From Paramacrobiotus metropolitanus (taxonomy: Eukaryota > Tardigrada > Eutardigrada > Parachela > Macrobiotidae): a DNA stretch of 64,000 bases. A program made the translations under genes and the position numbers. The notes under the pieces are model-generated. The model had not been told where the DNA came from. It searched no databases and was given only the letters and a program-made list of their open reading frames with translations. Shown in pieces: positions 18,979 to 48,620 of this stretch (position 1 is its first letter; each line of letters begins with the position of its first letter). Where the stretch lies: NCBI RefSeq assembly GCF_019649055.1, contig NW_026570285.1, positions 744,001-808,000 of the forward strand. The letters are read 5' to 3'.

Positions 18979-20582
18979 ATGGCGCTAATCAGCGCCGTCG
19001 ACGCCCGTTACCTCCTAATGTTCCTGTTAAATATACCAAAATCCCGCTGCACATACCCGGCACCCAGCTACCCCTCCCAGTATTCCCAGTACGGCGGCGC
19101 CCCGCCCCCTTCCAACAGCGGCTTCCCGAGTTACTACTACAGCTTCAACGCTCCGCAGTGGGAATACCGCTCCCTGCCCGACCCGGCGCTGAGCTACGCC
19201 AACCAGAACTACCCGCCGCCCTTGGCGCTGTACACCGGGGCGTCTAATCAAGCCTACTCCGCCGCCTCCACGGCGCTGAACGCCCAGCGTCCGGGATACA
19301 CCGTCCCGGCGTCCACGGCGGTGCTGCCACCGCCCCCGGGCCCCTATTACCCGCTGTCCCCGGCCGCGGCTAGTCGGTACCTCCTCCCGGGACCACCGCT
19401 GCCCGAACCGCCGGCGTACCCCGCGGGACCCCCGCCGTATCCCGTTCCCGAGGCGGACTACGCGTATCCCCGGGCGTCCCCCGGAAGTGGCGATATGGTG
19501 CGACTTTGCTGTTTTTTTTTTAACGAAGCGGTTTATAAATGCAGTTTATGCAGGTGGGAGCCGCTTCCGGGACTTCCGGTTGGGCGTCGACCCCCTCCAA
19601 CGCCGGCTCGACCGATATCCTCTTCGACACGATGGCCGCCGAGCCCAACCCGGAGCAGGCGTCGATGGGGGAGCTGTTTTCGCGGCTGCACTGGAAAGCC
19701 CCGACGGCCAGCGTCCCCAGTCGCCCGGGGCGCAAGCGACCCTCCGCCTGGCTCTCCGACGCCCTGACCACGACGGAGGAGCCGATCGCGGCGTCCCCCG
19801 ACCCGGAGACAACGACCACCGAAGCCTCTGTGGACGCGGTGACCACCGAGGAGACCTCCAACACCTCCGTCCCGACCTCCGGGATCCCCATCATCGAGCT
19901 CCCCACTCTGGCGACCCAGCTGACCAAATTTGAGACCGCCCTGCGCAACAGCAGCGTCCCGCGCAGCCTGGTCCAGAAACTGCACACCTTCCGCGTGGCC
20001 TTCACCGCGCGTCCGCAACTCTCCCCGACCAACGTCCGGAACCTCTCCGGAATCCTGGACGCCATCCTGTTAGTCGGGGGTCTCCCGCCGTCGCTTTCCC
20101 AAGCCACGAATAACCTCAAAAGCGGGCTGGACGCCTATTCGAGCTTCTCCAAGACCTCCGCCGTCGATCCCCTGTGGCAGAGCCTCCTGCAGTCGGCGTT
20201 GAATATGAACCTGGCGGAGATGCCGCCGGCCAGTATGAGCTTCGCCATGGCGCTGGTCCAGAGCATCCTGGCACGGATTGTCGACTGCCGGAGCAATCCG
20301 GGACAGTGCGACTTCGTCGGGAGCGGGGCGACGGCGGCGGCGGTGGTCGCCGGCCGCCGGAGGGCGGGATCGGGGGTGGCACCGGGGAAAATCAAGGTGT
20401 GGGGACTGCGAAAGAGCGCCGAGGCGCTGGATAGCGCGGTGACGCCGGAAGAGGGCGTGACGGCCGCGGAACAGCCGCAGCCGGTGGTGGTGCGGAAAAA
20501 CGACGCCGTGGTCAGTACCGCCGGGGCGGCTGGCACGGCGACAGGCGGGCAAAACGGGCGGAATGTGGTTATTGTCATGTAG
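18979..20582 (+). CDS. Unrecognised Pro/Tyr-rich protein
   Basis: Two exons (18979-19497 and 19554-20582, joined by a 56-bp intron) would encode about 515 aa. An in-frame start at 18958 or an upstream exon is also possible. The first half is rich in Pro, Tyr, Ser and Ala with repeated YP/PPY motifs (YPSQYSQYGGAPPP, PPPPGPYYPL). A Thr/Ser/Glu-rich linker follows, then a globular helical stretch of about 130 residues (LATQLTKFETALRNSSVPR...SALNMNLAEMPPASMSFAM) containing two cysteines (DCRSNPGQCDF). The acceptor could also be 19545, keeping frame. I do not recognise the family. The composition suggests a structural, secreted or nuclear low-complexity protein, but no convincing signal peptide is visible. 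GC-rich codon use matches the neighbouring housekeeping genes. Confidence 0.6.
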
Positions 20583-34931: not shown

Positions 34932-37900
34932 TTACTCCAGGCCGATCTCGCAGAGCGGCAGCGCCACGCTGTCCTTGCAATCACCAAAGGTCACCAGGAA
35001 CGCACCGTACGCGTCGCCGTACTCCCGCGCCAACTGGCCGCACCGGGCCCCGTCCAACGCCCACTCCCCGGCCTCACGCACACCTGCAATGCGGGGAATG
35101 GAGAATCAATGTTAACGTCTGCAGATAATTTTTTTAAAAGCAAAGATAACAGCAGTATTCTTAATTGTTGGGGAAGAGCGTACTTTGTTGGAAGAGGGGA
35201 TCGGCGGTGGCGTCGAGGCTGCGGAGGGATGCCGGCAGGATGGGCTTCTTGGAGAAGCGGGGCGTGCGCAGCAGGCTCAGCCAGACCCGGTCCGTGGTGG
35301 AACTGGCGCTCAGCACTGCAAAATTCATAGCTAATTACATATAAAAATAATTGTAAATATAAGTACAGAGTACGATATAAATATAATTAGATAATTATAT
35401 ATCATGACAGATAAAAGAATATAAAGAAACTACATATATAAGTATAATTCATTACAAATTTTCTGTGGGCATGTGGAAATATGATCGTACAATTCTGCGA
35501 GTAGATTAAAATGTCGAGGGACAACGTTTAATTTTACAGTTAATGCTGCGCTGGTAATAATGTACAAGTGGGCCTGAAATGAAGTGGGCCGAGAATGCTA
35601 GAATGCAAGCATGCCGGGATACGAGGCTCCATACTGCGGGCCTGCTTGTATGCTGGGCTGCGGTATGCGGCGCTGTGGAAATGCCGAGCTGCGTATATGC
35701 TGGGCTGCATACTGCGGGCCTGCTTGTATGCTGGACTGCGGTGTGCGGCGCTGCGGGAATGCCGGGCTGCGTATATGCAGGGCTGCGGTCTGCGGCGTTG
35801 CAGAACTTGCGGTTGCGGGACTGCGGTTTGCGGGACTGCGGCGCTGCGGGACTGCGGCGCTGCGGGACGGTGGTACTGCGGCGATGCAAAATGTATTTAT
35901 ATGGTGTTGCTAGGTCTTGATATTGAAATTGATATGATGCCACTGGCTTTGAACTTTCGCGTATGCATTTTTTTCGTATGGTACTTTTTAAAGCAAAATG
36001 GCGTTAAAATTGAAAGAATTTTTGAATTTAATCGATGATTGCGATCAAAAAGCCTTCGAGTTTTGCATCGAGCACGGTCTTTTGAGATCGGAAATTGTAT
36101 GTCCTGCTCATAGTGAAGAAATACTACGCATTACACGTAGAAGTGATCGTTCACTCTTCCCATGGACATTTCGGTGTAGTCAGCCACCTTACAGCAAGTA
36201 TTCTGCGAAGACTGGCACTTTTTTTGAAGAATCACATCTTCCACTTCATAAAGCAGTTCAGTTGATGTACTTTTGGGCTCATGAAATTTTAACCAACGAA
36301 AATTGTGTTTCCATTTTAATTTTAGCGAACACACTGTCGTCCAGGTGTCATTCATGCTGCGAAATGTATGTGAAGCAAAAATAATTAAGGATTTGTCGGT
36401 TGCGAAAATTGGTGGCATTGGAATGACAGTCGAGATTGACGAATCGTTAATTTTTAAAAGAAAAATACAATCGTGGAAGACTCTTGTCAAACGAAAGAAA
36501 ACAGCAATGGGCGTTCGGGGTATTTGCAGAGAAACAAAAGATGCTTTTATTGTTTTGTCAATGACAGGGCTGCTGAAACATTACTGCCAATTCTACAAGC
36601 ACATGTTTTGGAAGGCACACTAATTATGAGTGATAAGTGGCGGGCATATTGCCGCATTGAAGAAATGGGGTATGATCACCTAACAGTGAATCATTCTGAG
36701 AATTTCGTGGACCCGACTACCGGCGCATGTACAAATCGCGTAGAGAACATGTGGCGATGGCTGAAAGATTCTTTGCCATCAAATGGAACTACGGATAAGA
36801 TGGCCGATTCGTATATTTGTGAATTTTTATGGAGAAAGAAGTATGACGCAAATCATGATGGTTTCGATAATATTATGAAGCATATTGTGGAATACTGTAA
36901 TCATGAACTGGACGTTTCGAATGATGAGTAAATAAATAAAAGAAAGATCGTAAATAAAAGAAATATCTTTGTACTAGCGAATCCGATGGAGTGAGGAATA
37001 AGGTTAATAATAAATATAATCAGTAAAGTAGGAATACGATTTTGTACGATAACGATGCTGGCCTAACTTTTTGTACGATAAATTTTATACGTACAGTTAT
37101 TTTCTTTTGTGTTTTTGCGCTATAGTACAGTACGATTACGAAGTATCTGTATTGTGCATACTGTACACACTGCACACAACACGCATGCGTTAATAGTGAA
37201 TACGTGAATATTTTATACGTACAGTTATTTTCTTATTTTCTTGTTTTCTTGTTTTCTAGTTTTCTTATTTTCTTATTTGCTTATTTGCTTATTTTCTTAT
37301 TTTCTTATGTGTCTGTACATACTGTACTGTCTGTTGCCTGCATACTGTACAGACAACACGCATGCGTGGATAGTGAATACGTGAAGCATTATGTACACAT
37401 AGCACGTACGTATGTCAATAAATATGCACAAGTAAATATGTACAAGTTGCATACTAGCAAAACTTTAATCGTTTAACTGAGTTTTGTACAATTGTTGTAC
37501 GACGTATATGTAGCTCAAAATTAGTTTCATAATCCGATGTAGCAAAATCGAGATTTTTTTCCAAAATCCGAGGATTGATAATCCGTAGCTTATTGCCTTC
37601 TTTGAAAATTGCGAATAGTCTGCGATTGTGTCCTGGAACATAACACCGCGAATTTTAGCACTTTGGTCTGCTATATCGAAGGAGAGGAACTCTCCAGCCT
37701 TTCCGTCTTTGAACCATTTCGTGGGTCCTTTTACATTTGAGATGACCCCATCGATCGTACAGCTAGCAATAAAAATATTTAGTCAGTTATCTCCAATCTA
37801 TATTGTGGATCGTGCTATGTTCTAAACAAAAAACAATAATTCTTAATTTTATTAATAATTTCAAAGTAATTTCTGCATTGATAATAATAGTGATACTAAT

Positions 37901-40900
37901 TAATGTTATGTTTTAACAGCAGTCGGTTAAGTGTATTGTCATGGTGCAGACCGACAGCATTACTTGGCTGATTCCAGATTCAGTTCGATAATCAACATTT
38001 CTTTCGACGTGCGAAAGTTTTCTCGTTTAATGCCAATCGGTTCCCATTCATCTACCATTTTTTTGAATTCTGTCTGCGGCGGTATCGAGTAGTTGGAAAC
38101 TTTGAATGAACAGAAATTTTCTAGAAAATTATAGCGGCCGTTATTATAGTTTCTGAACAGAACAGTTATTAAAGGATTGTAAATTTGTTATAGAAGTTTA
38201 TTGTTATCTTACTCCGGTGAAGTGTGAATCACGCTGACGTTTATCAGTTTTGCGACTTTGGGAAGAACTGCTGCTTCGATTAAAGTATTTAGACTTCTGT
38301 CGATCTGGACATCTGCAGAAAACATGTCTGTGTAAATATTATCAAAAATACGAAAATCAGTAAATAAATATTATCAATATTGCTTCCGCACTCGATGTTA
38401 AATTAAATGCGTCCTGTATTGTTAACAGCCATGTTCCGTTAATGTGCCGTTTATGGCGTACGATGACCAGATCGCTTTGTAATACGTCCCCGTTTATGAT
38501 TTGCTGCAAATACACATAATTTTAGTATGAAGGTGTTTTTCTTACGAGTATTCTAATGAATATATTTATTACGAGAATAAACCTGTATGACAGGCGTCTG
38601 GTTAGAAGGCAAAGCCGTGCACGATATGTCTTCTTCATCTGGTAGATTGATATCCTCGAGAGAAATATTCATTTTGGCAGCTTCATTCTATAAGTATATT
38701 TTTCCAACCAAAGATATGGTGCTTGAAACACTTCATAACACTTCACTTGAAACACACTTGAAACACTTCATGAAACACTTCCACTAGCATAAATTTCATG
38801 TAGATCATCAAGAATTCTATAATTTGTTGAGTGACCTTTAAGAACTAATTGTCAAGGTTACAAGGGAAGATATTTGAGTGCAGCGATAAGTACTTATATG
38901 AATACAGTAGTACTACAAGCATTACTAAATGTACAAAATGCACGTATTGCAATGTTTAAAGCTTACGTTAGGCAAAGCAGTTGATACTTGAAACGAAGAA
39001 TGTATCAATTCCATGACTTGACGTTCCAACATTGTGATTGTGTATGTTGCAAATTTTCCACAGGAAGCAGATTTGCAAACAGAGTCAGTACAACGAAATT
39101 GCAGGGATGTGCTTCCATCCACGTGCACAAAATAAACATTGTTGTGTTTATGCCTCTTTTTGGCAATAAGGCAATGCTGTTGTCCGCGAGTAATACAAAG
39201 CAACACATCATGTTTTTTTGAAAACTGCATCGAACCGAGCAGTAGATTACGATAGTTTTCTGACCATTTGATTAATATCTGAATAAAAGCCTTACAAATA
39301 TCAGATGAAAAATTCGCTTGTCCAAGCGCACTGACTGCATCAAAATGTAAGTCGTGTGTGTTTTGATTGCCCTGATATCTACTGCCACAAATCAAAGACT
39401 GCATAAAAATCAAATAATTACATTTGATTTGTCCACATTCTGTCGTAAGGTTATGGAGTACAAAATTATTGGTCGCGCCTTTCTTGTTGCACATGAACAT
39501 GCGGAAATTTTGATTTCGACTGTAAACAGATAAATCCACGCAGTCGATGTATGTGATATTTAAAAGATCAGCTTTAAGTTCGTTCGCTAAACTTTTGTGT
39601 TCTTGATTTCCAGCTGCTAAAATGGCAGGCCAAATTAAATGATAGCTTTCTTTGCGATCAGTAGTAGCGTCAAGCACAATAACTTTGTGCGACTTCTTTT
39701 CAATCCGATGTATTCGATGATTTGTTTCAGTAAAGTAAGCAGTAATCTGCATTTAATTGTCTGCGGGTAAACAAGCTCGATATCCATATAAAACTTGCAG
39801 TAATAGCCAGGTAAAAGAATTTCATAAAAGATCGTTCGGACGGATTTCGTGATAAAAGTAATGAATACATCTCAGCTTGCGTACAAACAAGAAACTTTCT
39901 GCATCCGCTGGTCAGAATTTGTTCGGCAAATACGTGTTCGCCATCTTTAAGATGATGAATCGCATGTTGCAACTTAGAGTACCACAACATGGTTATTTGT
40001 CTTTGCGGAAAGATAAGCAGACAAATGTAGTGTAGTACTCGAATTTATTAAGTATTTTATAACATCATTGAATTGTCACAGCGCAACAGCTTAATCAGCT
40101 TCTGCTGTATGTACAATATGCAGCTGATCTGTGTATCGTACGAAGAAAAACTACGTATTTGCAGTGGCTATGATAATGTAGTTACTGTACGTGTAGCGTA
40201 GTCTAGCGGTTACGTTAATGTAGGATAGAGATAATGTACGTACTTATTAAATGAGGCGGAAAATCTGCTCCTTGATATCAGCATATAATTGTGCTTGTGG
40301 AATTTCGGCATTCATAGTCTATAATTCCAAAGTATAGGTTTTAGTCCGATTTGTTATTGACGTGCAGTGCGCACCACCGCAGGTCTGCATAATTATGATA
40401 ATAATTATGATTTTCGTATTCTCTATGACGATATTAACTATGATTTCGTATTTGGACTATAGCATTTCGATTAATATTGTTATTGAATTACCATAATAAT
40501 ACTGGGAACCGGAAAGCACTTTCCACTGAGCCATGTATCGTAAAGTTCATTACTATAGCATAGCATTTCGATTAATATTGTTATTGAATTACCATAATAA
40601 TACTGGGAACCGGAAAGCACTTTCCACTGAGCCATGTATCGTAAAGTTCATTAAGCTTTGTAAGATACGCCTAAAATGGACATTCATATAATATGACCTT
40701 TTATAAACTTCCAATTAAATTGCTGTGCAGTTCGATGAAGCTACTAAAATTTGAGTGACCTTTGTGATGCAACTTTCTTCTTCTCGTCCGCGGCAAAGAA
40801 TTCGTTGTTGCAAAGTTTCAACCGAAGCTTTGAGATAAATAATCATTGTCACTGGCAGGTGTTTAGCCGAGTAATTTTGAAATAGTTCGTCAAGCTTTTC

Positions 40901-43900
40901 GTACTCCACATTCTCCAGCAGTTCGCTTAAAAACGTAAAGTAGGTGTTTAAAATAAGTATGCTTACTACAATACTTTCAAATGTGTTGTACCTCGAGCGC
41001 AGACTTTCAGTAAAAACGTAACGCGCACTGAAAATTGATCTTTCAAATACAGTAATTGTTTCGGTGGCAAGATTTTTTTGGCGGTCCATCATGCTTTGCA
41101 TAACCAGCTTTTGAAAGTCAAAGCCGTATTTGCGTGGATCTTTGTACATTAGATCCTGAAAATATATGTGAGCGAACTGAATTACATATTTATCTACTAA
41201 TTATTTGTCTGCAGGTTAACCAGCAAATTTCGGTTGTCTTTCGTTTTCCAAATTTCAACTGGTTCTTCAAAAGCCTTAAAAGTAATGAACAATATTAGAT
41301 TTACAGATAAAAAATTACAGACAAATTAAATTACTTGAATACGGCAGTCTGCTCCCAGATATTTTATGAGATCTGTTTTCCCGCATCCAATATTTCCCTC
41401 GATAATAATCTGCATGGATGAGTTATATGAAGAATGGTGAAGTGCTTCTTTATGTTGATAACTTTACTTTAGTTACTTTTAGGCTAGTAAAACATAATAC
41501 CTGTGAACTCTCCTATGTAGTACTCGTTTCTATGTATTGTAAATTTTTTTTTGTTAGATCGTTGTATCAAGGCAACTAGATTTCGTAAAGTATAAAAAAT
41601 AATATAATAGAGTCAAAACACAGTAAGGGCTGTTTACAAAACGCAAATACTCCGTAATAATCTGTAGTAAAGTAGTTCTCTGTAGTACAGTATTAACGAT
41701 AATTTGTAGTACGTGTAGTAAAGTATTTCTCTGTACCACCACTCTCCGCTACCACGACTACTGTCGTAGACACTACTGCCGTATCTCGTAACAGTCCATA
41801 AATTCAGGCCTGACCTTTCCAATACACATTTACACGCTTACCCTGTGTATAGTAAAGAAAGCAACTTCAAACAATATAAATACTGTATATAAATGGTAAG
41901 ATAATAACTGGAAACGCATGGTTTTGTTGCTATGCAGTCAGTTATGTAAAGAACACACTAATGCTATGTAGTACTGATAACACTTTGTGGTACATATCAT
42001 AAATTTGTGGTACTGATACAGTGTTGTCGAGTCAACTTGCCACCTTTTTTTTCAGTGAGTCGTATCCGATTAGCATACAGCTTACTGTAATACGTAGTAC
42101 TGGTGGTACATAATACTGATAGTACCGATGTACTTAGTACTACTAATAGTACTTGTTGTTGTTGTTGTTGTTAGGATTTTACAAAGTATTCTGTATTTAT
42201 TAATAGCCAAATTACTATATCCAAGGCGAAAGCCGCTGCGGCAGCTGCGACCTATTGTACCAATGCACACCAACGTGCATTTGTTAAAAGTAGGTTATAA
42301 TTAATACAGCACTGGAAAAGGTTAATTAGTTTTCTTAACTACACCAGCAACTACTCGTTAACTGAAAATGAACTCTTCATTGAAAGGAAAGTTGTCCGCC
42401 GTATCGAAACATGAGGCTAAGTTCGTGCAGGAAGTCTGCATTAAGAATTTTAGCCACCAGGTTGAAGACTACGTGTCTGGTGATTTATTGAACTGCATAA
42501 TCTACCATGCTCAGACCAACAGAACAAAAGAGATGGCTGTTTATGGTTCGTTGTTGGCTACAACAGCAACAATTTCCGCAGAGAAAGTTCTGTTGCAAAT
42601 CACAGAGAACTACAAGAAACAATGCCCAGCCATTAACTTGCTTATTGTTTGCAATCCGGGGAGGAAAAAGCACAGCTTTGCAGGACTACTGTACAGACTT
42701 TCTGGATGCAATTTCACAAAAAAAGAACAAGAAGTTCTATGATAATCCGCATACATTTGGAGGTAACAGATTTGTGTTTATAAATGGACATATACAATAA
42801 TTATCCATATACAATAATTATTATTCATCACAATATTTCTTTTAATTTTGTACACCATTAATTTTAATTTTGTACAGTTTAAACACGCCACTGTTTACAC
42901 ACACACTTCTACACTAACGAACGCACTTTCACAAACTATAACTTTGTTTTAGCTTATCGTACATTTCTTGCCGACACCAAAGGATTTGGTTCTGTCATAG
43001 CTGACGAAATAGCGGGAACACTCGGTACACTAACATTGGCAGAGGAAAACGCAGCAAGCCTGATGAACAAAGTTTGGGAGGACAAAGCTTAAACGTGTCG
43101 TATAAAACAGCAGGATCGTTGAAGCTGCCTCGCAGTTCGTCTGCGTTTTTCGGTAGTTTGCATCCGCAGCCATTCTGTAATATTCTTAAATCTTGGACAG
43201 CCGGAAACGGCTTGGAAGACCGGTTGCTGGTCACTGCAGTCGATAACATCGTTACTGATATTCCGGAAAGCAGAGAAGCAAAACAGCGTCTGCCAAAGCC
43301 GGTGGTTGACTTGAAAGAAATGTTTATTAAATTGTATGAATATTTGGACAAACATCCTGGCTTATTACTCACTTATTCGGAAGAAGCTTTCGAATTTATT
43401 GCGAAAATATCTTCGGATGTAAAACGGATGCGCATTCTACACAACCAGAAAATTGCCAACGGTGAGTCATCTATGGATAGATCGGATTTTGTTTCGAAGT
43501 TGGAGGACAACATTCAAAAAGTTTCAATGCTGTCCCACATATTGAGCTCGTCCTATCAGAGTATGCTTACTATCAAGGCAATCATTATTCCCGATAAAGT
43601 ACCATTGGAAACAGTGCAAAAGTCATACAATTTTGCTGATATCAGCGGAGGTGCCTTCAATGAATACGAAAACATCAGGCCGGCAACATGTGCTAAACCC
43701 ACAAATTTCTCTCTTGTTCTTACACCGGGCGAATTTACAACATGTCGTATACATAATGACACATACGGATCCAGAAAAGCATTTGTGAGGCTGACAGAAA
43801 CCGAGTTTTCTAATGCGGCGCTACAAATGCAAGAGGACGGTCTGGGCATTATAAAAAGTTTTGTCATGTCCAACGGCAAAGAAGGAAACGTTCTGTATAA

Positions 43901-46175
43901 ATGCCCCCCTGCTGAAATTGACAAGCAGATTTTGATCGCTGCCGGGCTGATTTTCACGGTTTACGAAAGTGCCTACAACGCGGACTTTGCATTACCACCA
44001 TCCAAGAAACGTGAACTCTCGGAAATAATTGAGCAACTAAAAAATCAAAATCCTTACAACCGCAAAGCTTCAACTGAACGCGGCACCAAACGAGTTGCGC
44101 CCGACGATGAATATCCGATGGGAGTAAACATCTATTGACCATCGATTCCTAATACTGTGCACTCGCATTAAGTTTAATAACTACACATTTACGCTTATGT
44201 TACTAGTCGTAACGAAAACGAGTCGTACCGTTAAAATTGCTTCATGCTGTTACCAGAATTCAAAACATGGATATTATTTAAAGGTTAAAACATAAAGATT
44301 AACAATAGTAAGCTCGCTAGCGAAAACCTACATATAACTGGAACGGGTGTTATTATATGTAGAAAATGTTTTCCGCTGGCAAATTTGTCAGCACATCACA
44401 CATTCGCAACCTGTATCAGTTTCACAGGATGCCGCAGTTTCGTAGGCTACTGCAGTTTTGCGGCCTATCGCAGTCTCGCAGGATGCCGCAGTTTCGCAAG
44501 ATGCCGCAGTTTCGCAGGATGACACAATTTTCAGATTGTAATGACTTGATATTCCAGGGTCCCACCCCCCCACACCATAGACATTAACAAGTATCCATGC
44601 AACACTGTCCCACTAGTGCACTGATGCCGCTGCGCTGAACAATCAGCTTACTGTTATCGACGATGGCGTCTCGTTCGTTGGCGCTCTTCACCTCCGCCAG
44701 ATGCGCGTTACGACCGAAGCCCTGGCAGAAGGCGGTCGCTTGGAAATAGTTGACACTAAAAAATTAACAATCATAATTATCGTTTTTAATTATTATTTTT
44801 AATTAATAATATAAATAATATTTTCATACGTATTTATAAATATTTTATTAGCGCGTCTTCTGTGCATATATAAGCAGGCGATGGATGACCTTTAACTATT
44901 AAGGCGCAGTTAATACCGAATTATGTACCTCATGAAGTCGTTGGCTAGGAAGTAGCAGTTCTTGCCGAGCCGCGTCCATCCCGGCAGTTGCGGACAACCC
45001 TCGCGCAGCGCCGCCGTCTGTTTGGCCATCGTATAAACGGAACTGGCCACCGTGGCGGCCGGCGTGCGGACGGTGCCGTTGAGCGGCGGCGGGACGCTGG
45101 CCAGCTTCATCTCGCAGAGCGGCGTGCCGGCCAGCGAGCAGTTCCAGTAGCCGAAGCCGTTGCCGTGCCGGTCGAAGCCCACACAGTTGTCGCCCATCCG
45201 GATGTTGCCCAGGCCCAGCAGCTCCATATCTGGAAGTCCCATTTCAAAATCTGATTAATGCACTGTACCGTTTATTTTTGTATTTCTAAACTTTCTATGC
45301 ATTTTTATACTGATAATTCATACGTATTGTATATGCAAACTCTACCGTATACTATGCGGAACAGCGTTCTAATTATTATTTATTAACGTTACGCTGCTCG
45401 TACGTACATTCGTCGAACATCGCGTCGCCGGTTTCCGTCAGCGTTGTGGGCAGCATGAACTTGTCACTGCTGTGATTCGACCGGATCAGCCCAATCCAGG
45501 GGCCCGTGTTATACGATGTGTTCTTCACTGTGCAATACACGCCACCACACACCTTCATATTGTTAAGCACGAGTATTTCATGAATACAAATTATTTCATA
45601 ATTGGTAAGGCCATCCAGTTACTTTATTCATCAATAAATGTCACTATTACAAAAAGTAGACTAGTGGTTTTAGGTGCATACAGATACGAGTATGGATCGT
45701 ACCGGCAGCTTCAAGGAATTCGAACTCGTCCATGCTGTTGATCTCCGCCAGATACGCCGCCTCCCGTCCGTCGACCGTTTGGCCTAGACCGCGGCAGAAG
45801 GCCGCCGTCTCGTAGTAGCTTCCTCTGCATCATTAGATAAGGGATGCTCACAAAAACAGTACACAATAATATATAAAATCTAATTATTCACATACGCATA
45901 TAAAAAACCTTGAAAGGTCACCGGGTATACGGACGCGGCTTACAATATGTATATGAAAACAATGAAATGGTATAACAATAAGAATGTATAAAGAATTATA
46001 CAAAAATCCTCAAAGATCACGGGTATATACGGCCTGTACAGTGTACCCACCCGGGATAGTCTTCGCCCATGAAGTAGCAGCTGTCGCGGAAGCGGCGCCA
46101 CGCTTCCGGACAGTCCTGGCAGTGTACGCCGGACGTCCATGCCAGCACCAACAATAACGCAGCGCGCTGCAGCAT
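34932..46175 (-). CDS. Secreted two-domain C-type lectin, intact, with 9.3-kb intron 5
   Basis: Seven minus-strand exons join with consistent phases to 351 aa: 46051-46175, 45703-45824, 45408-45527, 44929-45229, 44652-44755, 35184-35315 and 34932-35083. Residues 1-19 (MLQRAALLLVLAWTSGVHC) are a signal peptide. The first C-type lectin domain starts DCPEAWRRFRDSCYF and continues to NCSLAGTPLCEM. A short Pro/Thr linker follows, then the second domain from GCPQLPGWTRLGKNCYF to CKDSVALPLCEI. The canonical calcium/sugar EPN or QPD triplet is not evident, so carbohydrate binding is unproven; the protein may act in immunity or adhesion. Intron 5 (35316-44651) contains the whole PrimPol-transposase element, yet exons 5 and 6 still match in phase (1 nt + 2 nt). 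The family is repeated, mostly decayed, across 21-63 kb. Confidence 0.85.
35580..35890. repeat. Left-end GC-rich array of the large element
   Basis: Two copies of a 78-bp unit (about 35630-35707 and 35708-35785) are followed by 15-16-bp repeats of the form 'tgcgggactgcggcgc'. The motif tgcgrractgcggy recurs inverted at the other end of the element (44400-44525). All three plus-strand frames are open only because the composition excludes stops. Confidence 0.75.
35998..36931 (+). pseudogene. IS1595/ISXO2-like DDE transposase, two frameshifts
   Basis: About 310 codons in three consecutive frames. The first (from ATG 35998) has a zinc-ribbon-like N-terminus (CPAHSEE...FRCSQPPY) and LPLHKAVQLMYFWAHEI. 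The second contains VEIDES with the first catalytic Asp. The third contains MSDKWRAY (second Asp), GYDHLTVNHSENFVDP and TNRVENMWRWLK (Glu). These are the signatures of the IS1595/ISXO2-like domain used by Merlin-type elements in animals. The frame changes by -1 near 36315-36325 and again near 36555, both at TTTT runs. A processed mRNA would not be open as read. The gene lies next to the left array, as expected for a mobilising enzyme. Confidence 0.85.
36932..37453. other. Spacer with pyrimidine-rich microsatellite
   Basis: This spacer lies between the transposase and the RPA-like gene, which converge. It contains a TTTTCTTA/TTTGCTTA-type run at about 37220-37310 and two near-copies of 'acaacacgcatgcgt' at 37174 and 37352. 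No gene is seen. Confidence 0.5.
37454..38672 (-). pseudogene. RPA1-like ssDNA-binding protein (short, one frameshift)
   Basis: Five minus-strand exons start at 38672 (MNISLEDINLPDEEDISC) and end at 37454. The first three and part of the fourth resemble the RPA70 N-terminal OB fold (TPVIQQIINGD...LINVSVIHTSPE). The last exon resembles DNA-binding domain A: CTIDGVISNVKG, FLSFDIADQSAKIRGVMF, then RIINPRILEKNL and SDYETNFELHI. Between DYSQF and the last block the family reading shifts by -1 at a TTTT run (about 37585). The protein would be about 290 aa, so domains B and C and the zinc ribbon of RPA1 are absent. It would coat single-stranded DNA. Introns of 60-250 bp show it uses host splicing. 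Confidence 0.6.
38925..39990 (-). pseudogene. PrimPol-type archaeo-eukaryotic primase (two frameshifts)
   Basis: The minus-strand reading begins MLWYSKLQHAIHHLKDGEHV at 39990. Motif I of the primase fold, with the D-x-E metal pair, reads CKFYMDIEL. The KVIVLDATTDRKESYHLIWP block matches the next PrimPol motif, and IDCVDLSVYSRNQNFRMF is the signature of PrimPol motif III. A C-terminal UL52-like zinc motif follows, with C and H ligands in CITRGQQHC, the HNN turn and CTDSVCK. PrimPol makes DNA or RNA primers and extends them. The frame shifts -1 after PSERSF (TTTT, about 39827) and -1 again near KKS (AAAA, about 39695). As written it would not produce a full protein. An alternative 26-nt GT-AG intron near 39750-39775 would also restore frame at the second break. 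Confidence 0.8.
40460..40653. repeat. Tandem duplication of the kinase's last exon
   Basis: A block of about 93 bp at 40561-40653 recurs unchanged at 40460-40552 (offset 101 bp). It spans the terminal codons of the deoxyribonucleoside kinase (ELYDTWLSGKCFPVP...) through its stop codon. Identity is complete by eye, so the event is recent or an assembly duplication. Confidence 0.9.
40581..41415 (-). CDS. Deoxyribonucleoside kinase
   Basis: Five minus-strand exons (41335-41415, 41221-41274, 40992-41155, 40760-40925, 40581-40670) join in phase to 184 aa with no frameshift. The P-loop reads MQIIIEGNIGCGKT, followed by EPVEIW, NLLDLMYKDP across a splice junction, the family signature ERSIFSARYVF, the lid-like RGREEESC and a C-terminal YDTWLSGKCFP. 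This is the dNK/TK2/dCK family, which phosphorylates deoxynucleosides to the monophosphates that feed dNTP synthesis. It is shorter than animal dNK (about 230-250 aa), with loss mainly in the middle. Such a gene inside a transposon is unusual and suggests that the element raises nucleotide supply for its own copying. Confidence 0.82.
41416..42367. promoter_or_regulatory. Divergent spacer with clustered GTAGTAC-type motifs
   Basis: This 950-bp region lies between the divergent kinase and ATPase genes and should hold both promoters. The core gtagtac/gtggtac/tagtact occurs about ten times (for example near 41516, 41681, 41706, 41967, 42009, 42095, 42104, 42132 and 42144), and a (ttg)6 run lies near 42155. 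No coding exon is seen. It could be a protein-binding array or a replication origin of the element; that is conjecture. Confidence 0.4.
42368..44138 (+). pseudogene. DUF3987-like P-loop ATPase (two frameshifts)
   Basis: Exons 42368-42762 and 42953-44138. The N-terminal part runs MNSSLKGKLSAVSKHEAKFV to LLIVCNPG, the first half of a Walker A loop. Its GGKSTALQDY half is in another frame, short by 2 nt (or long by 1) at a GGGG run near 42658. Exon 2 carries FGSVIADEIAGTL (Walker B-like DE) and SAFFGSLHPQPF, then a long helical tail ending near RVAPDDEYPMG. These are features of DUF3987 proteins, thought to be primase-linked helicase-type ATPases. A second break, -1, lies at 43085-43090 where GCTTAAA gives a stop. 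The total would be about 530 aa. Exact family membership is tentative. Confidence 0.6.
44400..44525. repeat. Right-end 18-bp array of the large element
   Basis: About six tandem copies of an 18-bp unit of the form 'gccgcagtttcgcaggat'. On the opposite strand this reads tgcgaaactgcggca, matching the left-end motif tgcgggactgcggcg, so the two arrays are inverted relative to each other. Confidence 0.8.
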
Positions 46176-47339: not shown

Positions 47340-48620
47340 AGTGCTGGCCGAGCGGTTATCACTACACCACCACTGCACCCACTACTCGCCAAGTGTGCGA
47401 GTAACCGAGCTAAACAACTGTCGAGCAGAAATGATTTTCTGTTCAATCCGTCATAGACCGAACCACCACCACTGTCCAGTGAACAGATCCCGTTCGGTAC
47501 GTGAGTGACCAAACTGCCACCACTGTCCAGTGCACAAGCCCGTAAAGTTAGTGATTGACTGAACTAAAACCGTTGTTCAGCGCACCGAATTGACTACCAC
47601 TGTTGTTCAGTCAACATAACCCCGCTAGGTTAGTTGAGTAACCGAAGCATCCCGGCTCTCCAGTAAACGCAGCCCGTTAGGTGAGTGAGCAACTGTCACG
47701 CGACTGTCAGGTTAACAGAGCACGTTAGGTTAGAGAGTAACAGAGCTACCACTACAGCTCAGTGCACAGAGTCCGTGTGAACGATGTGACCGAACCACCG
47801 CTAATGTCCTTTCAACACAGCCCGGTAGGTTAGTGATCATGAGTCCGTCCAGTTGACATCGAGCCCGCTAAGTTATGGAGTAACCGAATAATCACAACTC
47901 TCCAGTGAGTAACAGTAAGGTCAACTGAGTGACAGTGAGGTTCGAAAAGAGCGGGTAACCGAGCGACCGATACTGTCCAATGACATAGCCCGTTAGGTGA
48001 ACAAGTGACCGAGCTATGGGCACGGTTCAGTGTACCAAGCCCGTTAGGTGAGCAGGTAAGCGAGCCCGTTAGGTGAACAAGTGACCGAGATACGGGCATG
48101 GTTCAGTGTACCGAACCCGTTAGGTTATCGAGTGACCGAGCTGCCTCTACTGTCCAGTACGCAGTGCCATTTAGGTTAGCGACAACCGAACTACCGGCAC
48201 TGTAAAGTATGCCGAGCCCGTTAGGTGAGCGGGTAACCGGGCCCGTTAGGTGACGCATGACCGAGCTGGACAGTAGGGGCATACTGTCCAGTGCGCAGAG
48301 CCCGTTAGGTGAGCAGTAACCGAGCTACGGGCACTGTCTAGTATACCGAGCCCGTTAGGTTACCGGGTAACCGAGCCCGTTAGGTGAACGAGTGACCGCT
48401 GCATCTACTGTCCAGTACGCAGTCCCATTTAGGTGAGCGGCAACCGAGCTACCGACACTGTCTAGTGTACCAAGCCCATTAGGTGAACGAGTGACCGAGC
48501 TGCCGGCTCTGCCCAGTACACAGAACCCGTTAGGCGAATGAATGACCGAGCTGCCACTACTATCCATTGCATCGAGCCCGTTAAGTGACCGAGCTGCCAC
48601 CACTATCGAGAATCATCAGG
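47340..48620. repeat. ~51-bp minisatellite
   Basis: About 1.25 kb is made of diverged copies of a unit near 51 bp, of the form 'actgtccagtgcacagagcc' followed by 'cgttaggtgagcgagtgacc' and 'gagctgcc'. Because the unit is close to a multiple of three, the minus strand shows repetitive open frames (SSVTRSPNGLGTLDS), which I regard as incidental. Copies are cleaner in the right half (48000-48620). Confidence 0.85.

Follow-up and report, generated by a model that had tools for sequence, protein, structure and literature searches.

The 64,000-bp stretch of Paramacrobiotus metropolitanus DNA analysed here (C65:744001-808000, the window) carries a DNA transposon of the Merlin superfamily which moves as a 9-kb unit and holds four conserved genes besides its transposase gene. 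The reading that we prefer, with a probability of roughly 55%, is that of a recently mobile, self-contained Merlin transposon with an acquired replication module, whose cargo would serve to copy it after excision or to fill gaps. The features of the element, with their positions in the window, are as follows.

35545-35552, no strand: left target-site duplication gctgcgct, repeated directly after the right end.
35553-35576, plus strand: left terminal inverted repeat, beginning with GG; identical start in four copies.
35625-35881, plus strand: left subterminal array of CTGCGG-type repeats (TRF and orientation count).
35998-36931, plus strand: Merlin/IS1595 DDE transposase, frame broken in the assembled copy (Pfam PF12762, relatives and tree).
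37454-38687, minus strand: RPA-like OB-fold protein, five exons, first ATG at 38672 (OB-fold and rpa1 matches; exons in the related elements on C32, C74 and C81).
38988-39990, minus strand: PrimPol-type archaeo-eukaryotic primase with a putative zinc-knuckle region (PDB profile matches and relatives).
40459-40653, no strand: 101-bp perfect tandem duplication in the 3' region of the deoxynucleoside kinase (dNK) gene, in the window copy alone of the four (TRF and break in the copy alignment).
40581-41415, minus strand: deoxynucleoside kinase, five exons (Pfam dNK and PDB match).
42368-44138, plus strand: DUF3987 P-loop ATPase, two exons (42368-42762 and 42953-44138), putative replicative helicase (homology to C32).
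44417-44521, minus strand: right subterminal array, made up of 18-bp repeats of CGCAG type in the opposite orientation to those on the left (TRF and orientation count).
44605-44628, minus strand: right terminal inverted repeat, ending with CC; matches the left end at 16/24 bases.
44629-44636, no strand: right target-site duplication gctgcgct, matching the left copy.

Outside the element, the window contains tandem arrays of a AGCCCGTTAGGTGAACAAGTGACCG-type unit at 47987-48593. Its G + C content reaches 0.67 at 19001-20000; every other 1-kb step lies within 0.33-0.58.

The P. metropolitanus assembly (533 contigs, 169.8 Mb) was searched for further copies. Positions 38000-40000 of the window gave four matches of 99-100% identity and one of 65%. 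The four near-identical copies lie at unrelated loci with different flanks and have the same start and end bases (the alignment of one copy runs one base past the shared end, by chance). Their common break-points place the transposon in the window at 35553-44628, 9,076 bp; a ~9-kb DNA transposon had been predicted at 35600-44540, and its exact ends lie slightly outside that span. The other copies measure 8,983, 8,958 and 10,891 bp; in the longest, on C94, the right part is duplicated in tandem. At C94:548245-553399 the end of the ATPase gene is present twice in tandem, with 99.8% (first unit) and 99.0% (second unit) identity to the window.

Each of the four copies has its own 8-bp target duplication (gctgcgct in the window, ctgtaatc, tcaaattc and ggcgggta), and distinct 8-bp duplications were present at 6/6 insertions with both ends identified (the four copies, an element on C32 and one derivative, both described below). 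Five of the six possible copy pairs were compared: three copies differ among themselves by 3, 4 and 5 substitutions per ~9 kb, and two comparisons with the fourth gave 10 and 14. Only four full young copies were found in this genome. The many single-base indels could point to an assembly artefact, and the block might also be ordinary host genes in conserved synteny, but the chance of either is negligible in view of the four loci with different flanks and the diverged relatives on other contigs; the separate target duplications at the four loci led us to reject both. Single-copy host sequence in conserved synteny, which the original prediction had named as a counter-explanation, is ruled out within this genome by the same four loci.

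A second family is represented by an 8,373-bp element at C32:806444-814816, with cacttttg on both flanks. It carries the same genes, with 65-77% DNA identity to the window in the stretches that align, and its dNK gene lies between the transposase and the primase, whereas that of the window lies between the primase and the ATPase. Within this genome, the proposed search for other loci with the gene set and a target duplication yielded the four near-identical copies and the C32 family, all with 8-bp duplications. Matches to the ends are more numerous; counting the full copies, the genome contains at least 14 matches to the right end and at least 13 to the left end. A derivative of 807 bp at C94:466994-467800 retains 281 bp of left-end and 64 bp of right-end sequence, each with 100% identity, and is flanked by its own duplication, ctttgtga. 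Because this derivative, with the ends alone, has a target duplication, the ends appear to be sufficient in cis. The ~460 bp between them show no relation to the element. On C126, C173 and C6, left and right end pieces lie at least 1.3-1.9 kb apart; the C173 derivative showed no target duplication in the stretch examined.

The inverted ends are imperfect, with a chance probability of 3e-5 for the 16/24 matching bases of the window and 0 of 100,000 random draws equalling the 20/24 of C32. The motif CTGCG occurs 15 times in the left 400 bp of the window element and 0 times in the right 260 bp; its complement occurs 0 times on the left (400 bp) and 6 times on the right (260 bp). C32 has 14 CTGCG motifs left and 1 right, and 0 complements left and 5 right, and the interior of the element has no more than ~1 CTGCG-type motif per kb. 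TRF and these orientation counts bear out the claim that related, inverted GC-rich arrays bound the block of five genes.

The transposase matched Pfam DDE_Tnp_IS1595 in the window's own frame (3.4e-19) and in the C59 copy (1.3e-19), and the C74 relative matched NCBIfam transpos_IS1595, an equivalog domain, above the cut-off (2.6e-25). The frame is open over 314 codons in C32, 320 in C74 and 215 in the C59 copy, and the candidate DDE residues are invariant across the three families aligned. A protein search returned 2,043 proteins at E ≤1e-10, of which the best 120 were combined with the three tardigrade families and three bacterial outgroup rows in a tree of 126 rows. The window family, C32, C74 and five further rows branch beside a 115-row group (93/99), apart from bacterial IS1595. 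This group holds all seven rows with animal species names, including a nematode, a scorpion and a leafhopper, as well as an EukProt row which we take to be the sponge Ephydatia. The fork joining these groups does not show the tardigrade rows as one clade, and the bootstrap of the tree is not fully settled; ENA protein P0005 is the sister of the C74 transposase (100/98). Placed in a tree with known elements, as had been suggested, the transposase groups with eukaryotic Merlins and not with bacterial IS1595. Two old transposase remnants, C31:1217292-1218061 and C31:1224982-1225377, lie ~7.5 kb apart, one of them with a left array, and are possibly one old element.

Among the papers listed by full-text searches of a library with few subscription journals, none describes a Merlin element with a primase or DUF3987 protein. 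The word 'primase' occurs 0 times in the main text of a Merlin survey (PMC8101967), and the available passages of a review of giant transposons (PMC6431247) do not mention Merlin. The original prediction knew of no described class with this gene combination, and none was found in the literature searched; transposase, ends and duplications are nonetheless all of Merlin type, and the element belongs to the Merlin superfamily and not to a separate one.

The primase frame of the window alone gave a sub-cut-off Pfam match to AEP (0.0055). Against PDB primase/polymerase (PrimPol) structures, the C32 relative scored 6e-9 and a four-sequence profile including the window 6e-22. The C74 relative scored 24 with the AEP_C962R model (cut-off 23), and the primase on C68 scored 22.5 with Herpes_UL52 (cut-off 21). 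C962R is a gene of African swine fever virus. Conserved blocks of the primase include KESYHLIWP-like and VYSxNQNFR-like stretches, and the zinc knuckle is a putative one. A candidate for a host PrimPol lies at C29:915061 (38% over 104 residues).

The RPA-like gene lies downstream of the primase gene on the same strand. Its product matched an OB-fold (1.4e-4) and NCBIfam rpa1 (5.7e-4), both below the curated cut-offs, and a yeast-type RPA1 chain (0.044); the RPA1 matches are weak but consistent, and RPA is the weakest of the five identities. The exon phase would be compatible with a PrimPol-RPA fusion in the window and C32, but an AAAATG start common to the window, C32 and C74 favours two separate genes. 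A predicted structure of the OB exon (pLDDT 40) was too poor for use. A search of the genome for RPA gave no recognisable host RPA gene among the 39 matches listed.

The spliced dNK model of the window matched Pfam dNK at 9.8e-48, with deoxynucleoside kinase entry 1j90 as its best PDB match (9.4e-35). As dNK was looked for and not found in C74 and C68, we place it outside the core set. The window ATPase received the name DUF3987 because of its 81% identity over 354 codons to the C32 protein, the spliced form of which matched Pfam DUF3987 at 3.9e-13; the second ATPase exon of the window alone had no Pfam match. With PHROG, the C74 ATPase matched a DNA helicase (2e-8) and also primase families, and the C32 ATPase matched no helicase, only a family of unknown function (0.0084). 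The ATPase profile found no relative among solved structures, and the predicted structure (pLDDT 38) was too poor for use. NCBI lists the ATPases of the C32 and C7 elements as uncharacterised proteins LOC129588939 and LOC129582396.

Exon positions come from a translated comparison with C32 together with splice sites; the RPA, dNK and ATPase genes contain introns. Pfam covered 11 of the 18 ORFs of at least 80 codons that overlap the element; the other seven comprise four that span the left array, two that are alternative transposase and ATPase frames, and one antisense frame. All five gene types predicted for the block were confirmed, partly via relatives. No capsid, packaging or protease match was obtained in the 11/18 ORFs searched with Pfam, where fast-evolving capsids can escape detection. 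Pfam searches of these ORFs and of the gene models matched neither PolB nor a retroviral-type integrase, only the IS1595 transposase, and gave no Rep (HUH) domain. The predicted absence of capsid, polB and integrase from the block is in line with these searches (11/18 ORFs).

Comparison of the window family with C32 shows long-term purifying selection on all five genes, as judged from pN/pS ratios of 0.13 for the transposase (154 codons), 0.34 for PrimPol (243), 0.23 for RPA (121), 0.39 for dNK (107) and 0.14 for the ATPase (354). Synonymous sites are near saturation in this comparison (pS 0.69-0.95), and the segments chosen were alignable ones with an open frame in at least one copy; leaving unaligned stretches out of the count lowers the ratios somewhat. 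With ratios of 0.13-0.39 on all five, the genes are therefore unlike passive cargo. That a Merlin element passively picked up purposeless host genes is very improbable: capture as such happens, as the unrelated internal DNA of the 807-bp derivative illustrates, but it would not account for purifying selection on all five genes or for a core set found in four diverged lineages with changed order, and no recognised host RPA gene was among the 39 matches listed.

In the window copy, four frames are interrupted (transposase, primase, RPA and ATPase), and no assembled copy of the window family is open for every gene. The five copy pairs show 3-14 substitutions against 13-33 indel events, and 11/13, 24/31, 17/24, 28/33 and 21/27 were single-base indels next to the same base. 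Because such homopolymer indels dominate the copy differences, the frame breaks are probably assembly errors. A reading of the broken frames as pseudogenes or decay was doubted, since the copies differ mostly by single-base indels and by few substitutions.

The core set of transposase, DUF3987, PrimPol and RPA is common to four lineages (the window family, C32, C74 and C81), in varying order. C74, with the order RPA-primase-ATPase-transposase, has a transposase (52% identity), an ATPase (40%), a primase (~30%) and two RPA exons; its ends were sought and not found. C81 has, all on the minus strand, a decayed transposase (122545-121784), the ATPase (~121360-119262), the primase (118932-117178) and RPA (115977-114995). 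Occurrence of the genes only singly and scattered, a further counter-explanation named beforehand, is not what this genome presents, though C7 is a single-gene remnant, with only the ATPase end (88%) within the 12.5 kb read. At C446:15861-16334, RPA-like and transposase fragments directly adjoin. With 43% identity to the C74 ATPase, two DUF3987 proteins from ENA also end in a similar tail, VNFY or VDIY; one ENA source may hold both these ATPase relatives and the transposase relative P0005. The ATPase protein searches scored ~8,000 candidates each, and the profile search missed the two proteins returned by the first; because sensitivity was limited, their silence on other animals is no evidence.

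Primase and ATPase genes were also found as pairs. At C68:172598-182425, ~5 kb separates a stop-free primase from an ATPase of 24% identity; at C139:65928-76575, ~8.5 kb separates a primase frame containing one stop from an ATPase, likewise of 24%. Only a primase, with one stop and 92% identical to that of C68, was found at C91:240560-241585. No Merlin match at C68, C139 or C91 was among the matches listed for two transposase queries (17 and 26 rows), and the primase-DUF3987 pair seems to exist also without Merlin. Given the 92% identity between the C68 and C91 primases, this Merlin-free lineage may be mobile as well. An OB protein may lie between the C68 primase and ATPase (Pfam 0.02). Between the primase and this possible OB gene, C68:174837-175730 (minus strand) is an open frame of 298 codons with no Pfam match, whose QNQGNGIDC tail looks to us like that of a Ulp1-type protease.

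Such pairs raise the possibility that a small virus- or plasmid-like replicon gained a Merlin transposase, the transposon form being merely its integrated state. We regard this as improbable. PrimPol and DUF3987 near each other at C68 and C139, with no Merlin among the matches listed, would suit it, as would primase relatives just above the cut-off with the herpesvirus UL52 (C68) and C962R (C74) models; against this, introns interrupt the RPA, dNK and ATPase genes, the ORFs searched gave no match to a capsid, packaging or protease gene, the C74 ATPase query found no relative among 50,697 phage records, and pattern-limited scans of IMG/VR were negative for ATPase, primase and transposase queries alike.

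If the element is a Merlin transposon with an acquired replication module, the transposase would recognise the inverted ends and inverted subterminal arrays, excise the element and paste it elsewhere, producing the 8-bp duplications. PrimPol would prime and extend DNA, the DUF3987 protein would unwind it, the OB protein would coat single strands and the kinase would raise dNTPs in cells outside S phase. Jointly, these enzymes could copy the excised element or fill single-stranded gaps arising from transposition, with a gain in copies; the likeliest reason why just these enzymes are retained would be that they copy the element. Adult tardigrade cells are mostly non-dividing, and for that reason a nucleoside kinase would make sense. 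The ORFs searched gave no polymerase other than PrimPol; long synthesis would require those of the host. A self-synthesising or replication-assisted transposon had been predicted: a Merlin-driven mobile unit with a conserved, PrimPol-based replication and nucleotide-supply gene set is supported, and self-copying by this cargo is inferred.

The cargo might instead serve excision-gap repair, fork restart or the countering of host responses, the element itself moving by plain cut-and-paste. We consider this rather unlikely. In its favour, copy number is low, no polymerase B was found in the ORFs searched, and eukaryotic PrimPol has been described as a re-priming enzyme recruited by RPA (PMC5295015, PMC5457501). 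However, a predicted helicase of the mobile-element type and a dNTP-making kinase would fit replication better than gap repair, and the core set has been kept in four lineages.

Cut-and-paste DNA transposons usually depend on host replication for copy gain. If the preferred reading of an element-copying cargo is true, animals would have a second, PolB-independent route to a self-copying transposon. P. metropolitanus can be cultured, and young copies in a culturable tardigrade make the replication idea testable. DUF3987, with a helicase role suggested by prokaryotic mobile elements (PMC5862659), would moreover be joined to eukaryotic mobile DNA. We tentatively extend this, as a possible though somewhat doubtful view, to a class of animal transposons in which a replisome led by a primase (PrimPol, with a DUF3987 helicase, an RPA-like protein and sometimes a dNTP-making kinase) replaces PolB and which, between insertions, would replicate as capsid-less episomes; PrimPol-DUF3987, present at C68 and C139 apparently without Merlin, would be an old plasmid-like module of animals and Merlin its integration machine.

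Merlin elements have a DDE_Tnp_IS1595 transposase, target duplications of 8-9 bp, tandem repeats in their interior and imperfect ends (PMC8101967). The tardigrade element resembles them in all four respects, its duplications being 8 bp long and its imperfect ends inverted. It differs in its 9-kb size and its four further conserved genes. Mavericks/Polintons encode a retroviral-type integrase, PolB, a protease and a capsid. They too are large eukaryotic DNA transposons with replication genes, but the tardigrade element has instead a Merlin DDE transposase and 8-bp duplications, and no PolB, protease or capsid match. Casposons are prokaryotic and have a Cas1 integrase and PolB, in which they differ from the present element. 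The likeness lies in an integration enzyme carried together with a DNA synthesis enzyme, which is the self-copying logic described for casposons (PMC4046053). Helitrons are eukaryotic transposons that likewise carry an RPA protein (PMC6431247), but they use a rolling-circle Rep-helicase and make no target duplication, where the tardigrade element has a DDE transposase, inverted ends and duplications. Teratorn, described in the same review, unites a DDE transposon with a set of viral replication genes, among them one for a primase, and is in this respect similar, but it measures 180 kb and combines piggyBac with herpesvirus genes. According to that review, a nucleic-acid-primed polymerase and primase could yield novel very large elements after acquiring an integrase or recombinase (PMC6431247). 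The pairing of a primase with DUF3987 is shared with prokaryotic mobile elements, in which an AEP primase is fused to DUF3987, a predicted helicase (PMC5862659); in the tardigrade element the two are separate genes, with introns, and stand beside RPA and a transposase.
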